A stretch of 47,044 bases of DNA, taken from assembly GCA_903887485.1 (NCBI GenBank), contig CAISPV010000115.1, positions 1 through 47,044 of the forward strand, given 5' to 3'. The position numbers were made by a program, and so were the translations under genes. The DNA is from an uncultured Desulfobulbaceae bacterium. Its GTDB lineage: Bacteria > Desulfobacterota > Desulfobulbia > Desulfobulbales > Desulfocapsaceae. The notes below the pieces were generated by a model that saw nothing but the letters and a program-made list of their open reading frames with translations, was not told where the DNA came from and ran no database searches. Of the stretch, positions 14,236 to 25,726 are shown one piece after another. Every line of letters begins with the position of its first letter. Positions within the stretch are counted from its first letter, which is position 1.

Positions 14236-15105
14236 ATGAATCAAACGAACTCCAATAGTATCGGAACGCTTTATGTGGTTGCCACCCCCATCGGCAATCT
14301 TGAAGATATCACCCTGCGGGCCCTGCGCATCCTCAAAGAAGTTGATCTGATTGCAGCAGAAGATACCCGGCATACCAAACAGCTTCTGAACCACTTTGAT
14401 ATCCATACACCGCTCATTAGTTATTACCGGGAAAAAGAGGCTGAACGGTCGGAAGAGCTGGTGCAGAAACTGCTTGCCGGGGACACTGTCGCCCTGGTCA
14501 GTGACGCCGGCACCCCCGGAATATCCGACCCCGGGGCGGTGCTGGTTAAAAAAGCAAGGGAGGCCGGGATCACCATTGTCCCTTTGCCCGGCCCTTCCGC
14601 CCTGACTGCGGCCCTTTCTGCCGCCGGGATTACCGATGGCACTTTTCTGTTCCTGGGTTTTCCCCCTGCCAAAAAAGGGCAACGGCAAAAATTGCTCTCC
14701 ACCTTTATCGAGGCCCCATGGGCCTTGGTTTTTTATGAATCTCCCCATCGGATTGACGCCCTTCTGGCCGATGTGCTGGCCATATTGGGAGATCGTCAGG
14801 CATTCTGGGCCAGGGAATTGAGCAAGCTCTATGAGGATCTGCAGGCAGGATCGATCAGCCAGTTGCTGGCCCTGGCCACGGGCAAGAAAAATCGGGGCGA
14901 ATTTGTGCTGATTATCCAGCCAGGTTCCTGCCGGCAGGAGGCCACAGGTGAAAATGTGGAGGAAATCCTCCTCTGGTATAAGGAAAATACCGAACTTTCC
15001 TTAAAGGATGTGAGCCGTCGAATCGCCAAGGATCTTGGGCTCTCCCGTTCCGATATCTATCAAAAGGCCCTGGAGGTCTGGGCCGCGACCACAGAAGAAT
15101 CATGA
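14236..15105 (+). CDS. rsmI: 16S rRNA (cytidine(1402)-2'-O)-methyltransferase RsmI
   Basis: RsmI methylates the ribose of C1402 in the ribosomal P site. The 289-residue protein has the tetrapyrrole-methylase-fold signatures: GTLYVVATPIGNLEDIT at the N-terminus, AAEDTRHTKQLLNH, VSDAGTPGISDPG (about 90-102), PGPSALTAAL and the ESPHRI segment near residue 170. Length is normal. The ATG has only a weak SD. Its stop overlaps the start of the next gene by four bases (ATGA), which suggests translational coupling with that unknown protein. Confidence 0.95.
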   Translation: MNQTNSNSIGTLYVVATPIGNLEDITLRALRILKEVDLIAAEDTRHTKQLLNHFDIHTPLISYYREKEAERSEELVQKLLAGDTVALVSDAGTPGISDPGAVLVKKAREAGITIVPLPGPSALTAALSAAGITDGTFLFLGFPPAKKGQRQKLLSTFIEAPWALVFYESPHRIDALLADVLAILGDRQAFWARELSKLYEDLQAGSISQLLALATGKKNRGEFVLIIQPGSCRQEATGENVEEILLWYKENTELSLKDVSRRIAKDLGLSRSDIYQKALEVWAATTEES

Positions 15106-16754
15106 ACAAACTTCGCACCTGCATCACCCCGGAGAAACAGTTTGTCTATGGCATTCATAAGCCATCCTATACGGTCTGCAACCTCAGGGCCGGCAAGAAG
15201 ATTGAACGCTTAGGCGCCATTAAAGGCAGTGATGATGAACCGGCGCTCGACAACAGCGGCAATTTCCCGGACGGCACCCTGTCTATCGGCAAGGCCGACT
15301 GGATCTTTGAGATCCCTAACCCCTTTCCGTTCCGGGGTACGACCTTTATCGATCAGGAGTGGGCGGATGCCAGCGCTGCTGATTACCGCCGGATCTCCCT
15401 GCCGGCCAAAGAGCAGGCATCTCTGACCCAAACCCTGCAGGAGGCAGGGGTGTCATCCACCCTGTTTGGCAAACTTCCTGCGGCCGTGCTGCTGGCGCTT
15501 GCTACCTGCTCGACCGATCCCCGTGATCTCATCCAGCTGGCAGAACTCAGTTGTCAGATTGAAAAAGATGCCGCCGGTCTGCCTGTTGGTCTGCTCTATA
15601 AAAGAAAAAAAAATGGTCGGATTCGCCCTGTCATGCTTGACCATGCCCTGTTTGAGGCCGTGGCCAATAACCCCTGCCTGCCGGACAGTTATAAAAAAGT
15701 TATGGTGGTCAGGCCAGGCGCTCAAGGGGGCAGTGAGATTGTGGGGGAATGGCCGGGGAATGGTGATAGCTCTGATACCCACGTCTTTGAATATTTGCGC
15801 CGGAACTCCTATATTGCCGGCGGCCATTACGCGGCAAACATGGCCGATGATGCCATTCGTTATGCAATCAAGGATCTTTCTGCGGCTGATATTCAAGGGG
15901 TGCGCCATCTTTACTATCAGCGGACCTATATCCGGTTGGCGGAGTTTCTGGGTCTTGAGCTGCCCACGGCTCAACAGGGTTTAACCCCTGAACAACTGGA
16001 GGGCTTGCGGCAGAAGATCCAGTGTGCACTTAACAATCAGGATATCGCATCGCCTGCGACCCTGTGGGGCTGGAATTTCGGCTTCGATTACGCGCCCAGC
16101 GGCTATCGGCTCCATGCCTCGCATCAGCAGATCCATCAACAATATGCGATGATCCCGGAGACGGTTGCCGCCTATGCGGGTGATCTGGAGAATCCCTGCG
16201 GGGAATTGCCGGCCTTTGGCTGCGGCGATATGGTCGCCGAGGTGATGCTGCACTATCGGGAACAGTCTGGCGCTGATTTTTTTGATGATTATATCGATTG
16301 CATCAAAAATAACAGACGGATGGATGGCCGCACGGACCGGGAAAGCAGTCTGGTAGTGTGGCAGGATGAGCATGCCATGCTCTTTGTCCCCAAAGCCCAG
16401 ACCTCCCAGTGGGAGCTGCAGTTGATGGCCCTGAATGATGAGGAAGGAAAGGCGGTGGGTAATATTGTGGAGGCGGGGCCTGCCATGCGGGCATCACTGG
16501 ATAGAGGTATCCTGCTGGCGCAAAAGGCCCTGGCCGGTCTGGGCGTGCGGATGGTGACCTCCATCGAATACCCGAAACGAATAGCCAGTAAGGGCAGAAA
16601 GGGAGAGCCCGGTCAACATCTGATCTACGCCTTTCTGCCTCGTCTGCCGGAATCACCCGGCGCCTTCAGCGAGGCCCAGCTTCGGTTTATCAATGGCCAC
16701 TATCCGGAAGATTTTGCTGCCGTGTGTCGGCAGCAACTTATCAATTTTGGATAA
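15102..16754 (+). CDS. Large protein of unknown function coupled to rsmI
   Basis: The 550-residue product overlaps the rsmI stop by four bases. It has no signal peptide or membrane segment. The central part holds GWNFGFDYAPSGYRLHASHQQIHQQY, given here as the segment at about residues 323-348, whose histidines (HxxHxxxH spacing) loosely recall the HIT/GalT nucleotide-transferase site; this likeness is weak and I do not rely on it. The C-terminus (about 470-550: MVTSIEYPKRI, LRFINGHYPEDFAAVCRQQ) is copied in a diverged form at 17565-17805. I do not recognise a named family. GC content and codon use match the surrounding core genes. Confidence 0.75.
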   Translation: MNKLRTCITPEKQFVYGIHKPSYTVCNLRAGKKIERLGAIKGSDDEPALDNSGNFPDGTLSIGKADWIFEIPNPFPFRGTTFIDQEWADASAADYRRISLPAKEQASLTQTLQEAGVSSTLFGKLPAAVLLALATCSTDPRDLIQLAELSCQIEKDAAGLPVGLLYKRKKNGRIRPVMLDHALFEAVANNPCLPDSYKKVMVVRPGAQGGSEIVGEWPGNGDSSDTHVFEYLRRNSYIAGGHYAANMADDAIRYAIKDLSAADIQGVRHLYYQRTYIRLAEFLGLELPTAQQGLTPEQLEGLRQKIQCALNNQDIASPATLWGWNFGFDYAPSGYRLHASHQQIHQQYAMIPETVAAYAGDLENPCGELPAFGCGDMVAEVMLHYREQSGADFFDDYIDCIKNNRRMDGRTDRESSLVVWQDEHAMLFVPKAQTSQWELQLMALNDEEGKAVGNIVEAGPAMRASLDRGILLAQKALAGLGVRMVTSIEYPKRIASKGRKGEPGQHLIYAFLPRLPESPGAFSEAQLRFINGHYPEDFAAVCRQQLINFG

Positions 16755-20904: not shown

Positions 20905-21909
20905 ATGGATACCTGGTATGTCGCGCTGAATGGCGTACAGCATGGCCCTTTCAGTCAGGATCAGATCCAACAAGGATTGGCTACCGGCGTTTACACCCGA
21001 GACACGCTGGTCTGGCGCCAGGGTTTTGCCAACTGGCTGCCCCTGGCCCAGGCGCCGGAACTGCAGCAGCCCACGTTCACCCGGCCACCCGTCAATCTTG
21101 GCGCCGCCAGACAGGCCGACGAGATCGATTACCAGATCCATGGCAATGAGATGCAATTTGTGGAGATTGAACTTGACCCCCAGGAAAGCGTCGTCGCCGA
21201 GGCCGGGGCCATGATGTATATGTCAGACGGCATCCAGATGGAGACCGTCTTTGGCGATGGCAGTTACGGCTCTGAGGTCGGCGGCTTTATGGACAAGATG
21301 CTGGGGGCCGGCAAGCGGCTTATTACCGGCGAGAGTCTGTTCACCACCGTTTTCACCTTTATGGGCCAGGGGAAAGGCAAAGTGGCCTTTGCCGCCCCGT
21401 ATCCCGGAAAAATCATCCCGTTCGATCTGAAAAACTATAACGGCAAGCTCATCTGTCAAAAATCCGCCTTTCTCTGCGCCGCCAAAGGCGTGGCCCTGGG
21501 GGTCGCCTTCCAGAGGAAAATCGGCGTCGCCCTCTTTGGCGGCGAAGGCTTTATCATGCAGAAGCTGGAAGGCAATGGCCTTACCTTTGTCCATGCCGGC
21601 GGCACGATTATCGAAAAAGAACTGCAGGCAGGAGAAACCCTGCGGGTGGACACCGGCTGCCTGGTCGCCCTGACCCAGACCGTGCAGTATGATATCGAAT
21701 TTGTCGGCGGCGTCAAATCAGCCCTCTTCGGCGGCGAAGGATTCTTCTTTGCCACCCTGCGGGGACCAGGACACGTCTGGCTGCAATCCCTGCCCTTCTC
21801 TCGCCTGGCTGGCCGTATCCATGAGGCAGCCCCCCAGAATAAAGGCGGTTATTCCACCCAGGACGAAGGATCGGTGCTGGGGGCGCTCGGCAATCTTCTG
21901 CAGAAATGA
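20905..21909 (+). CDS. AIM24 (TIGR00266-type) protein with N-terminal GYF_2 domain
   Basis: Residues about 3-50 form a GYF_2 domain ([18 protein letters not shown], then [13 protein letters not shown]), a small fold seen in membrane-associated bacterial proteins. Residues about 75-300 form the AIM24 double beta-sheet domain with the repeated glycine-rich signatures ([49 protein letters not shown]). The function of bacterial AIM24 proteins is not established; the yeast protein supports mitochondrial inner-membrane organisation. An AAGGAG-type SD precedes the ATG. It is GC-rich like the neighbouring core genes. Confidence 0.85.
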
Positions 21910-22589: not shown

Positions 22590-23786
22590 TTAGCTGAGTC
22601 TACTCGCTTCCTGGACAATGGCCAGCATGTCACGAACGGCCTGGTCAAGTCCTACGAAGGCGGCCCTGGCGATAATGGCATGTCCTATGGACAACTCTTC
22701 AATGGTGTCGAGGGCGGCGATACGGGCTGTAGTCTGGTAATTCAAGCCATGTCCGGCATAGACCCGCAGGCCTGTCTGGTAGGCCTCTTCGGCCATTGCG
22801 GCGATGATTTGGAATTCCTGATCGCGTGTCTTTTCACTGGTGGCGTCACAGTAGCGGCCTGTATGGATCTCGACAAAGGTGGCCCCAATCTCCTGGGCGG
22901 CCTTGATCTGCTTGGAATCAGGGTCGACAAAAAGAGAGACCGGAATCCCGGCCTTACGCATCTTGTCGATGGTCTTGGCCAGCATCTTTTTCTGGGCCGC
23001 TACATCAAGCCCACCTTCGGTAGTCAGTTCCTGCCTTTTTTCCGGGACCAGGGTCACCATGTCCGGCTTGAGGGCAAGGGCAATACCTATGATCTCCTTG
23101 TTGGCTCCCATTTCCAGATTAAGTTTAGTCTTGACCGTTTCCCTGAGCACCATGATGTCCCGATCCTGGATATGCCGCCGGTCTTCCCGAAGATGGACGA
23201 CAATGCCTGCGGCCCCGGCCATTTCGCAGATGGCGGCGGCGGCAACCGGGTCAGGCTCAACGCCCCCCCTGGCCTGACGGATGGTGGCGATGTGATCGAC
23301 ATTAATGGCAAGATGGGTCATGGCGGTGCTCCTGGAGTGTTGTAATTTGCTGAGTAGTTCCTGTTCCTTGTCCTGCATGAGAATCGCATCTGCCTCTGAT
23401 CGCTCATGGTCGTAACCAAGCAGATGGAGGAGGCCATGGGTGATGAGCCAGGTAAGCCGATCATGCAGGGATTGTTTAAATTCTTTGGCCTCTCGCAGGG
23501 CGGTGTCCACCGAGATGATGATATCGCCCAACTCCTTGACCGGCACCAGGGCAAGCGAGCTGTCTGCCCCGTCGGCAAAGGGGAAGGACAGGACATTCGT
23601 CGGTCCGCTCTTGTGCCGGTAGTGGTCGTTAAGCCAGCTTATCTCCTGATCATCGACCAGAAGGATGCTGAGACTATAGCCGGAAACCCGGCATTCTCGC
23701 AGGAGGGCTCCGGCGCGTCGTTGCAGGAGACGGCTGTTGATGCGGCAATCCGGGCAGTTGGTATGAAAAGAGAGATCAACGGGCAT
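22590..23786 (-). CDS. ybeY-pdxJ: Fused endoribonuclease YbeY and pyridoxine 5'-phosphate synthase PdxJ
   Basis: One open frame encodes two enzymes. Residues 1-155 are YbeY, the metal-dependent RNase of 16S rRNA maturation, with GPTNVLSFPF and the zinc motif HGLLHLLGYDHE (about 116-127). Residues 156-398 are PdxJ, which condenses 1-deoxyxylulose 5-phosphate with aminoacetone phosphate to pyridoxine 5'-phosphate; LAINVDHIATIRQARGG, the VHLREDRRHI segment, TRDQ and GHGLNYQT mark it. The linker is short (LQHSRSTA). An internal ATG at 23321 has CCAGGAG eight bases upstream and would give a PdxJ of 243 residues, the E. coli length, so free PdxJ may also be made. phoH lies upstream, the usual partner of ybeY. 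Confidence 0.92.
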   Translation of the reverse strand: MPVDLSFHTNCPDCRINSRLLQRRAGALLRECRVSGYSLSILLVDDQEISWLNDHYRHKSGPTNVLSFPFADGADSSLALVPVKELGDIIISVDTALREAKEFKQSLHDRLTWLITHGLLHLLGYDHERSEADAILMQDKEQELLSKLQHSRSTAMTHLAINVDHIATIRQARGGVEPDPVAAAAICEMAGAAGIVVHLREDRRHIQDRDIMVLRETVKTKLNLEMGANKEIIGIALALKPDMVTLVPEKRQELTTEGGLDVAAQKKMLAKTIDKMRKAGIPVSLFVDPDSKQIKAAQEIGATFVEIHTGRYCDATSEKTRDQEFQIIAAMAEEAYQTGLRVYAGHGLNYQTTARIAALDTIEELSIGHAIIARAAFVGLDQAVRDMLAIVQEASRLS

Positions 23787-23817: not shown

Positions 23818-24873
23818 TTACGCAGATTTTTTTATGATCTTGCTGATTGTCGCATTTGGCTCGCTGGCAATAACACCGCTCTCCTGCTTTTTTTCATAGG
23901 CGGTGATAATCTTCTGGACCAGGGGGTGACGGACCACATCGGCCTGGGTAAAGGGGCAGAAGGCGCTACCCTCCAGGGATTGAAGAAGCTGCCTGGCTTC
24001 AAGGAGTCCTGACTGTTTGGGAACCGGCAGATCCACCTGGGTGACGTCGCCGGTGATGACGGCCTGGGAGTCAAAACCGATGCGGGTCAGAAACATCTTC
24101 ATCTGCTCGCGCGTGGTATTCTGGGCCTCATCAAGGATGATAAAGGCGTTACTGAGGGTACGGCCCCGCATGAAGGCCAGGGGGGCAATCTCGATAATGC
24201 CCTGCTCAATCAGGGCCGCGCTCTTTTCAGGTCCCAGCATGTCACTCAAGGCATCATACAAGGGCCGGAGATAGGGGTTGACCTTCTGGGCCAGATCGCC
24301 GGGCAGAAAGCCAAGTTTTTCCCCAGCCTCAACCGCAGGACGAGCGAGAATGATGGAGCGTACCTGACCATTGGTTAAGGCGGAAACCGCCATGGCCACC
24401 GCCAGATAGGTCTTACCGGTTCCAGCCGGGCCGATACCGAAGACGATGTCATTGGTACGGATGGCGTCGATATAGGTCTTCTGGTTGCCGGTTTTGGGTG
24501 AGATAATCCGGTTTTTGGTGGTGATATAGACCTTGTCCAGAAAGATCTTGTCAAGCCTGGCATGGGGATTTGCCTCCAGGACTCGCAGCCCAAAGGCAAA
24601 GTCAGAGGAGAAGACCTTCAATCCCTTGCGGATCAGACCATAAAACTGTTCCAGCAGTTCTGCGGCCAGATCCACTTCATGTCCGAGGCCGGTGATATGA
24701 ACCCCATTGCCCCGGACATGGATTGTGACCCCGCAGCATTGTTCCACGGTTTGCAGATTTTTATTCAGATCGCCGAACAGGATAGCGGTCAGCGCATTAT
24801 CCGAAAAATCAAGATCACGGCTCAGCGGCTGAAGGGCCGTGTTATTTTTTTGCCGGTTTGCCAAGGGCCGCAT
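23818..24873 (-). CDS. PhoH-family ATPase
   Basis: The 351-residue protein has an N-terminal domain that includes a KH-like fold (about 30-90) and a PhoH NTPase domain with Walker A GPAGTGKTYLAV (about 140), FLPGDLAQKVNPYLRPLYDAL, the Walker B IILDEAQNTT and GDVTQVDLP. PhoH-like proteins of this kind (PhoL/YbeZ) interact with YbeY and are tied to rRNA processing. Here the gene lies 31 bases upstream of ybeY, as in many bacteria. Its start at 24873 overlaps the end of the selenoprotein gene by about 30 bases. Confidence 0.92.
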   Translation of the reverse strand: MRPLANRQKNNTALQPLSRDLDFSDNALTAILFGDLNKNLQTVEQCCGVTIHVRGNGVHITGLGHEVDLAAELLEQFYGLIRKGLKVFSSDFAFGLRVLEANPHARLDKIFLDKVYITTKNRIISPKTGNQKTYIDAIRTNDIVFGIGPAGTGKTYLAVAMAVSALTNGQVRSIILARPAVEAGEKLGFLPGDLAQKVNPYLRPLYDALSDMLGPEKSAALIEQGIIEIAPLAFMRGRTLSNAFIILDEAQNTTREQMKMFLTRIGFDSQAVITGDVTQVDLPVPKQSGLLEARQLLQSLEGSAFCPFTQADVVRHPLVQKIITAYEKKQESGVIASEPNATISKIIKKSA

Positions 24874-25726
24874 CTATTTTTTTCTGAAAGTCTTCGACAG
24901 TGCGTTCCCGCAGAGGATGGCCATTAACAAAGATTGATGGGGTGCCGTTTATCCCTGCTTTCTGGGCATCCATCATATCCTGGTCAACCTTTTGCCTGAT
25001 CTTGGGCGAGGCCATATCGCTCTTGAACTGGTCCATCTTAAGGCCAAGTTTGACGGCAATATCGTCAATAGCCTTATCATTAAGGGCTATATTGAGAGCC
25101 GGTAAAGCAAAGAGGGCATCATGAAATTCCCAGAATTTACCCTGTTCGCCGGCAGCAAGCGCGGCTCGGGCCGCCGGATCGGCAAATTGATGCATCCCCA
25201 GCGGTAGATTTTTCAGGACGATTTTAACGGTATCTGGATTTTTTTCGAGCACCTGCTCGAGAAGCGGCGAAACCTTGCCGCAGTGAGGTCACTGAAAATC
25301 CGTAAAAACAGCGATGGTCACCGGGGCCGTAGCCAAACCCCGAAAGGGCGAGCCAGCAGTGTTAATGTCGGCAACAAAGTCAATGTTGAGATCAGAAAAG
25401 GCCTTGGTCTCCTGATTGATGAGGAAGAGTTTTTCCCCGCGTGGCGCGATATCAATAGCCGAAACTCCTTTATCCACCGGAATTGAGCCTGACAGCTCTC
25501 CCAGATTGTCATAGACCAGCACAGTATGCTGGTCGGTCAGGATGAATACATGCTTCCCATCCAGGGAATAAACGATATCCAGCGGTTTTGCCGGAAGATT
25601 CCAGGTCTTTTCCACATTCCAGTCTATCTTGGATGGAGTCTTTGTGTTTACCGCCGCAAAGGCCTGGCCGGTGCAAAGGGATGCAAGGAGCAGAGCGCAG
25701 CCCGTTACTTTCTGCTTGTATTTCAT
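24842..25726 (-). CDS. DsbA-like thioredoxin-fold protein, candidate selenoprotein (UxxC)
   Basis: The frame is open for 294 codons if the TGA at 25289-25291 is read as selenocysteine. It would be residue 146 of FTDFQ-U-PHCGKVSPLL, where homologues have Cys of a CxxC pair. A signal peptide (MKYKQK...GQAFA) is followed by about 110 residues with propeller-like repeats (PLDIVYSLDGKHVF, AIDIAPRGEKLFL), then the DsbA-type domain with its helical insert and the cis-Pro segment GTPSIFVNG. The protein would act on thiols in the periplasm. Start ATG 25726 follows CGGAGGAAATTT. The codons after TGA stay in frame and keep family features to the end. A candidate SECIS lies directly downstream of the TGA. 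If Sec is not inserted, only the propeller-like half would be made. Confidence 0.85.
25245..25281 (-). promoter_or_regulatory. Candidate bacterial SECIS region of the DsbA-like gene
   Basis: Two hairpins follow the TGA. The first (25264-25281, starting 8 bases after TGA) has five GC pairs, GCGGC/GCCGC, and an eight-base loop AAGGUUUC with the GG near the usual distance for SelB recognition. The second (25245-25260) is a perfect TCGAGC/GCTCGA stem with an AGGU loop. Which one is used cannot be told from sequence. Confidence 0.55.

Follow-up and report, generated by a model that had tools for sequence, protein, structure and literature searches.

DsbA-like selenoproteins with a UxxC redox motif have been in print since 2005, when nine such sequences were reported from the Sargasso Sea (PMC1088965), and a 2006 description includes members from Desulfovibrio and Anaeromyxobacter (PMC1794560). 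A 2026 AEM review names a 'DsbA-like protein form 1' (PF01323) with NIP15863.1 as its representative (PMC13188914). Among related thiol enzymes, the ScsC proteins of Caulobacter and Proteus (CcScsC and PmScsC) are isomerases whose trimers are held by an N-terminal module (PMC8900818), and Wolbachia alpha-DsbA2 is a homotrimeric isomerase (PMC6450060). Two-blade propeller pieces are described as forming tetramers (PMC6805158). In addition, deep-Sep was tested on Desulfolithobacter dissulfuricans GF1, for which a count of 22 is given (PMC12013277). This count may already include a member of the family described here; contig C1 of genome G088 carries one of its Sec-form genes (L082).

The window is the whole stretch of DNA analysed, 47,044 nucleotides from an uncultured bacterium of the order Desulfobulbales. 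It very probably encodes a selenoprotein of this known kind, and novelty at that level, as implied in the first-pass annotation, was overstated. The combination of propeller blades with a DsbA domain is less described: no propeller-fused or Desulfobulbales-specific DsbA selenoprotein is among the matches listed from the open-licence literature by title and start of abstract.

A propeller-DsbA gene with an in-frame UGA

We assign positions 24842-25726 of the minus strand to a single gene for a propeller-DsbA selenoprotein, with a probability of roughly 0.93. Its main features, all on the minus strand, are as follows.

24842-25726 (-): probable Sec-DsbA gene, 294 aa and a TAA stop with one UGA read through; 150 listed homologues span the blades and the DsbA domain
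25655-25726 (-): probable signal peptide, residues 1-24, MKYKQKVTGCALLLASLCTGQAFA, read by eye; pLDDT 53-58 in residues 1-30
25385-25585 (-): two predicted beta-propeller blades, residues 48-114, YVTN/WD40-like; seven strands, block pLDDT 96-98, with matches to 1l0q
24866-25321 (-): DsbA-like thioredoxin-fold domain, residues 136-287, from Pfam and a VIA-align Z of 22.9 to 3gyk
25289-25291 (-): putative Sec codon UGA, residue 146, position 1 of the UPHC redox motif; TGA in 61 of 150 homologues and a Cys codon in 89
25280-25282 (-): codon of the putative resolving Cys 149 of UPHC, invariant in alignment A1 (79 sequences)

Two minus-strand frames had been joined at the TGA at 25289-25291 in the first-pass annotation, and translation bears out the coordinates, the frame and the residue number 146. 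This TGA is the sole internal one in the 294-aa frame, where it stands in the context FTDFQ-U-PHCGKV, and the downstream family features that had been named, including the cis-Pro of GTPSIFVNG, follow in the same read-through translation. A GGAGG just 5' of the ATG at 25726 supports this start codon. The expectation that automatic calling would yield two wrong genes also holds, since the mechanical ORF list (table 11) cuts the gene at the TGA into pieces of 152 and 136 aa; a plain list of this kind would miss the well-supported selenoprotein that the joined frame adds. The possibility of two truly separate genes was considered and rejected, like the other rivals treated below. Sec146 and Cys149 are the only Cys or Sec residues after the signal sequence, and the product very probably has an exported thiol-redox role.

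The catalytic domain and its redox role

Residues 125-286 match the Pfam families Thioredoxin_4 (E = 2.6e-24) and DSBA (E = 6e-22), both above the cut-offs. In structural comparisons by VIA-align, Z-scores reach 22.9 to 3gyk, 21.8 to 6eez and 20.8 to 7rgv. The closest folds to the catalytic domain are 3gyk, BdbD, Wolbachia alpha-DsbA2 and the ScsC proteins of Caulobacter and Proteus, and BcfH is also a neighbour. The domain carries the marks of the DsbA-like UxxC group, namely a DSBA/Thioredoxin_4 domain, the UPHC motif and a GTPS cis-Pro loop.

The analysis suggests a reductase or isomerase in preference to a DsbA/DsbB oxidase, at about even odds. This tilt comes from the fold neighbours and from the patchy occurrence of DsbB and VKOR, whereas this protein is listed in full length for at least 138 of the 193 genomes sampled from the order. 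Among 60 genomes of the family, DsbB is found in 9 and VKOR in 21, in 10 of which it is over the cut-off. A Sec-containing DsbA oxidase that is reoxidised by VKOR, DsbB or another quinone reductase would draw on these occurrences, on a DsbA fold with a GTP cis-Pro loop, and on the presence of BdbD (whose name is disulfide bond formation protein) and several DsbA proteins among the close fold neighbours. However, the partner expected for a DsbA/DsbB oxidase pair is not seen in the host genome (G000), where neither DsbB (PF02600) nor VKOR (PF07884) has a match at E <= 0.001; a missed gene is possible in a genome that is 97.7% complete. Low redox potentials are usual for Sec nucleophiles, which also favours reduction or isomerisation, and we regard the oxidase as rather unlikely.

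Less probable again is a Sec-dependent reductase of peroxides or oxidised periplasmic molecules in which the blades would serve as the docking site for an electron donor. Most uncharacterised thioredoxin-fold selenoproteins are considered likely to be redox proteins in the 2026 review (PMC13188914), which would suit this reading, but the domain is DsbA-like and not peroxiredoxin-like. The only DsbD_TM-like protein found in the host genome (L179, on contig C64) adjoins what reads by eye as an ACR3-type arsenite transporter, so that no electron donor is evident.

Two propeller blades at the N terminus

The AlphaFold2 model, built from 79 aligned sequences, has a mean pLDDT of 92.5. Seven strands in residues 48-114 stand between an ill-defined signal region and the DsbA-like domain. 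Because the VIA-align rows of the whole model spanned residues 113-292 only, the N-terminal part was also predicted alone, and it returned the same strands with a pLDDT of 92.2. Its sequence profile matches the YVTN propeller 1l0q (E = 8e-21) as well as WD40-type proteins. Foldseek also finds 1l0q for this part (E = 4.9e-4) and, among short targets, the two-blade piece 6r5x (E = 1.2e-3, TM 0.71 by target length), four copies of which, according to its title, make an eight-bladed propeller. The propeller-like N-terminal half that had been proposed is borne out as two blades in the model with matches to 1l0q and 6r5x. The chain falls short of a complete propeller, which would have four or more blades per chain, in that it has two blades of seven strands in all. 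Pfam gave no match in the N-terminal part of the window member, and no Pfam family appeared there in more than 15 of the 79 members.

Chains may assemble through these blades, although this is less likely than not; the blades could instead bind a partner without ever oligomerising. Their position also raises the question of two products from one gene. Since the UGA falls downstream of the blades, early in the catalytic domain, selenium-poor cells could release a 145-residue exported propeller piece with its own role, and selenium would permit the full enzyme. This is very improbable, given that Cys homologues retain the blades without such a split and that the blades, judged from the alignment, are less well conserved than the catalytic domain: just 2 of the 16 invariant columns of A1 lie before residue 131.

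The UGA column across homologues

Of the 193 genomes sampled from the order, 189 gave a match to the protein, although in a few the match is weak or covers just the DsbA part. The alignment set comprises 150 listed places (30 loci and 120 taken by place) from 138 genomes, with the weaker matches left outside it. At the column of residue 146, every one of these homologues has either TGA (61) or a Cys codon (59 TGC and 30 TGT). This agrees with the earlier placement of the TGA where a DsbA-like CxxC motif has its first Cys, and it answers the check proposed at the same time, that the column should hold Cys or Sec. The 61 Sec-form copies occur in 56 genomes, and 82 further genomes have Cys forms only. 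A recurrence of TGA at exactly this column in 61 of 150 homologues is far beyond chance, and its occurrence in 56 genomes excludes the read error that had been named as a possible refutation. The existence of 89 Cys homologues implies that Sec is dispensable for the fold.

In-frame TGA codons are otherwise nearly absent from the family. The totals are 62 among the 17,542 codons of the 61 Sec frames and 1 among the 25,960 codons of the 89 Cys frames. The one Sec frame with a second TGA is that of L173, where it lies about 143 codons further on, at the C-terminal end.

Beyond the order, 36 of the 38 listed full-length homologues were fetched, the remaining two having no TGA flagged, and the column holds Sec in 16, Cys in 19 and Ser in 1. 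The Ser form (L242, SPYC) stands in tandem with a UPYC copy (L229) in genome G570. A set of 19 shorter homologues from outside the order (L206-L224) has TGA at the same column in every case; these were chosen for having one TGA, and TGA-free shorter homologues were left out. The N-terminal blade profile has no match in any of these 19.

A predicted bSECIS hairpin downstream of the UGA

Two hairpins can form in the sequence that follows the UGA.

25264-25281 (-): first (lower) hairpin, possibly accessory, loop not conserved; pairs in most Sec sequences
25245-25260 (-): predicted bSECIS apical hairpin of 6 bp with an AGGU loop at 25254-25251, which 34 nt separate from the UGA; shared by all 61 Sec genes and by 4 of the 89 Cys genes

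The 61-nt stretch has a predicted energy of -21.4 kcal/mol (z = -2.9), and a value as low was reached in 1 of 200 shuffles. When the T of the TGA is numbered 0, the second hairpin pairs positions 31-36 with 41-46 and leaves 37-40 as the loop. All six pairs together with an AGGU (57) or AGUU (4) loop are present in each of the 61 Sec genes, whereas the same combination is found in only 4 of the 89 Cys genes (Fisher p = 1e-37, with relatedness ignored). The mean energy of the second-hairpin stretch is -9.7 kcal/mol in Sec genes versus -3.0 kcal/mol in Cys genes. The codons that encode this hairpin are, by sequence comparison, frozen only in the Sec genes. At codons 11-14 after the UGA, 93-100% of the pairs of Sec genes that share the residue also share the codon; for Cys genes the figure is 34-56%, and the backgrounds are 42% and 46%, respectively.

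The second hairpin lies within the published bSECIS constraints, which specify a loop of 3-9 nt, a stem of 4-16 bp, 16-37 nt from UGA to loop, a G in the first two loop positions and a minimum free energy of -7.5 kcal/mol or lower (PMC13188914). It has a 4-nt loop, a 6-bp stem, a G at loop position 2 and a distance of 34 nt, and its energy alone is -8.1 kcal/mol. Covariation is weak proof here, given how little the helix varies: when a seventh outer pair is counted, the paired fraction is 0.920 and the shuffle maximum is 0.922. We therefore rely on the presence or absence of the hairpin and on the freezing of its codons.

Two hairpins with GGU in their loops had been noted at the outset. Both are present, and GGU does occur in both loops here, but conservation is limited to the second loop. 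A GGU in the first-hairpin loop region (positions 15-22 after the T of the TGA) is found in 14 of 61 Sec genes, so its role had been overstated. The five lower pairs of the first hairpin form, pair by pair, in 46-56 of 57 distinct Sec sequences and in 28-54 of 89 Cys sequences. Since the second hairpin alone is invariant, we rejected the idea that the two are equal SECIS elements.

A simple scan outside the order finds a hairpin of -7.5 kcal/mol or lower in 13 of the 16 full-length Sec genes and in 2 of the 19 Cys genes (L185 and L241); the same scan finds none in the Sec genes L195, L197 and L226. The 19 shorter Sec genes are more varied, with a qualifying hairpin in 9, a weaker one in 5 and none in 5. 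These hairpins are of several other types, and 10 of the 19 genes fall below the simple bSECIS model.

These results bear directly on whether the TGA is a real stop, arising from a nonsense mutation in a pseudogene or from a sequencing error. In favour of this stands the division of the gene in the mechanical ORF list. However, the same TGA interrupts an otherwise open frame at the same column in 61 homologues, and the downstream hairpin accompanies it in all 61 and is missing from 85 of the 89 Cys genes. The recurrence, combined with selection on the sequence after the TGA, in effect refutes both versions of this explanation.

The selenocysteine machinery

The host genome has a complete set of the genes that the first-pass annotation had proposed looking for, each scoring above its cut-off: tRNA-Sec(UCA) at 68.3 bits (cut-off 47), selA at 620 (268), selB at 389 (242) and selD at 377 (125). 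The selD gene (L048, positions 75574-76515 of contig C3 in G000) has an in-frame TGA of its own in the context AAGUAAK, resembling GAAGUAAK, and is thus probably a selenoprotein gene too.

We tested 80 genomes for selA, consisting of all 56 with a Sec form and 24 of the 82 that have only Cys forms. Of the Sec genomes, 52 gave a match (51 over the cut-off), as did 19 of the 24 Cys-only genomes. The four Sec genomes in which selA was not matched (G069, G086, G145 and G149) are drafts of 63-95% completeness. The five Cys-only genomes in which it was not matched include G041, in two contigs, and G049, in one.

The Cys/Sec column, the Sec machinery, the bSECIS constraints and the recurrence of the TGA all favour insertion of selenocysteine at residue 146, which on this comparative evidence is nearly certain. 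A genome-wide altered code, with TGA read as Trp or another ordinary residue, would also leave the frame open but can be dismissed, since the column is Cys and not Trp in the 89 TGA-free homologues of the order, 13 of the 61 Sec genes themselves end in TGA, and the genome has tRNA-Sec(UCA), selA and selB.

Sec/Cys exchange and gene neighbourhood

A FastTree tree of the 150 homologues was built after removal of the 20 alignment columns from the active site onward. It has at least 28 Sec/Cys changes, of which at least 13 are forced by well-supported branches, with a warning from the tool that long branches meet; the direction of change was not inferred. Both forms occur together in genomes G067, G147 and G188. 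Within the genus of the window, Sec forms (L017, L018, L023 and L024) are interleaved with Cys forms (L019-L022, L025-L027 and L059). One Cys form of the order (L034, TGC) has a full 7-bp AGGU hairpin in the two-contig genome G041, which has no selA match. In sequence, this hairpin looks like a relic SECIS left after a recent change from Sec to Cys. The natural Sec/Cys swaps, which reach down to species of a single genus, together with L034 make the family a good system for studying why selenium is gained or lost in an exported thiol enzyme.

This gene is followed by phoH in all 30 of the loci L017-L046 and by ybeY in 29 of them; the contig of the remaining locus, L026, ends in phoH. Among 26 further loci (L180-L205), phoH adjoins the gene in 10 of 10 from the order and in 0 of 16 from outside it. 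The neighbourhood thus says little about function. A search of a plasmid collection returned 1716 records, all below 60% identity, and the first of the best 5 of these 1716 has 27% identity over 79% of the query.

Other features of the window

Scanned for TGA codons that combine open flanks with a bSECIS-like hairpin, the window yielded five sites, one of which is the UGA of the Sec-DsbA gene. Another, the TGA at 15453-15455 on the minus strand, has a UHPC context and a hairpin of -10.1 kcal/mol. This TGA is covered, in antisense, by a 550-aa plus-strand frame (15102-16754) and was taken for a chance occurrence.

Two further proteins of the window join two domains each. Positions 22590-23786 of the minus strand form one 398-aa frame that Pfam divides into YbeY (residues 35-148), an endoribonuclease, and PdxJ (residues 159-390), which acts in pyridoxal phosphate synthesis. 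Each of the seven loci L052-L058 gave a match of 397-398 aa, which indicates that this fusion is kept in close relatives. Positions 20905-21909 of the plus strand encode GYF_2 and AIM24 domains in one protein.

Comparison with known systems

On comparative grounds, SelB and Sec-tRNA(UCA) would read the UGA at 25289-25291 as selenocysteine, guided by the 6-bp AGGU hairpin 34 nt downstream. The exported product would then consist of the two blades (residues 48-114) followed by the DsbA-like domain with its Sec146-Cys149 pair. Sec146 would act as the nucleophile on a disulfide or mixed disulfide, Cys149 would resolve the intermediate, and the blades may assemble the protein or hold a partner. A protein of this design would work like the oligomeric ScsC/DsbC-type reductases and isomerases and not like a monomeric DsbA oxidase that needs DsbB. 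A fuller version of this model, slightly more doubtful than assembly through the blades as such, is that the two-blade pieces form a composite propeller, of six blades from three chains or eight from four, that carries three or four Sec-Cys domains. The result would be an oligomeric periplasmic Sec disulfide isomerase or reductase in which a propeller replaces the helical stalk and Sec and Cys have been swapped repeatedly between close species.

The window protein shares with the DsbA-like UxxC selenoproteins the DSBA domain, Sec at the first CxxC position and widespread Cys homologues (PMC1088965, PMC1794560, PMC13188914). The N-terminal propeller blades appear to distinguish it, since the passages of these papers that describe the group make no mention of such blades. 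Among curated families, all 10 listed NCBIfam models score below their cut-offs. The top-scoring one, NF041057 (Rcas_1661 DsbG-like selenolipoprotein), aligns to residues 119-286 of the protein but scores 69.6 bits versus the curated 190 and has its profile positions before 74 unmatched.

The blades themselves share sequence and fold with 1l0q, a YVTN propeller from an archaeal surface layer protein, and with 6r5x. Those structures are whole propellers, made from one chain or from four copies, whereas each chain of the window protein carries two blades, joined to an enzyme. With ScsC of Caulobacter and Proteus, Wolbachia alpha-DsbA2 and Salmonella BcfH it shares a close catalytic fold and the possession of an extra N-terminal module. 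Its catalytic-domain fold is that of the trimeric ScsC/alpha-DsbA2 isomerase class (Z = 20.8 to 7rgv and 21.8 to 6eez), but seven beta strands stand where that class has an N-terminal helical stalk. CcScsC and PmScsC use Cys where the window protein would use Sec, and BcfH and alpha-DsbA2 likewise use Cys. The N-terminal module is helical in CcScsC and PmScsC and consists of two beta-propeller blades in the window protein. If the blades do assemble the chains, this would be a new principle for the construction of disulfide isomerases.
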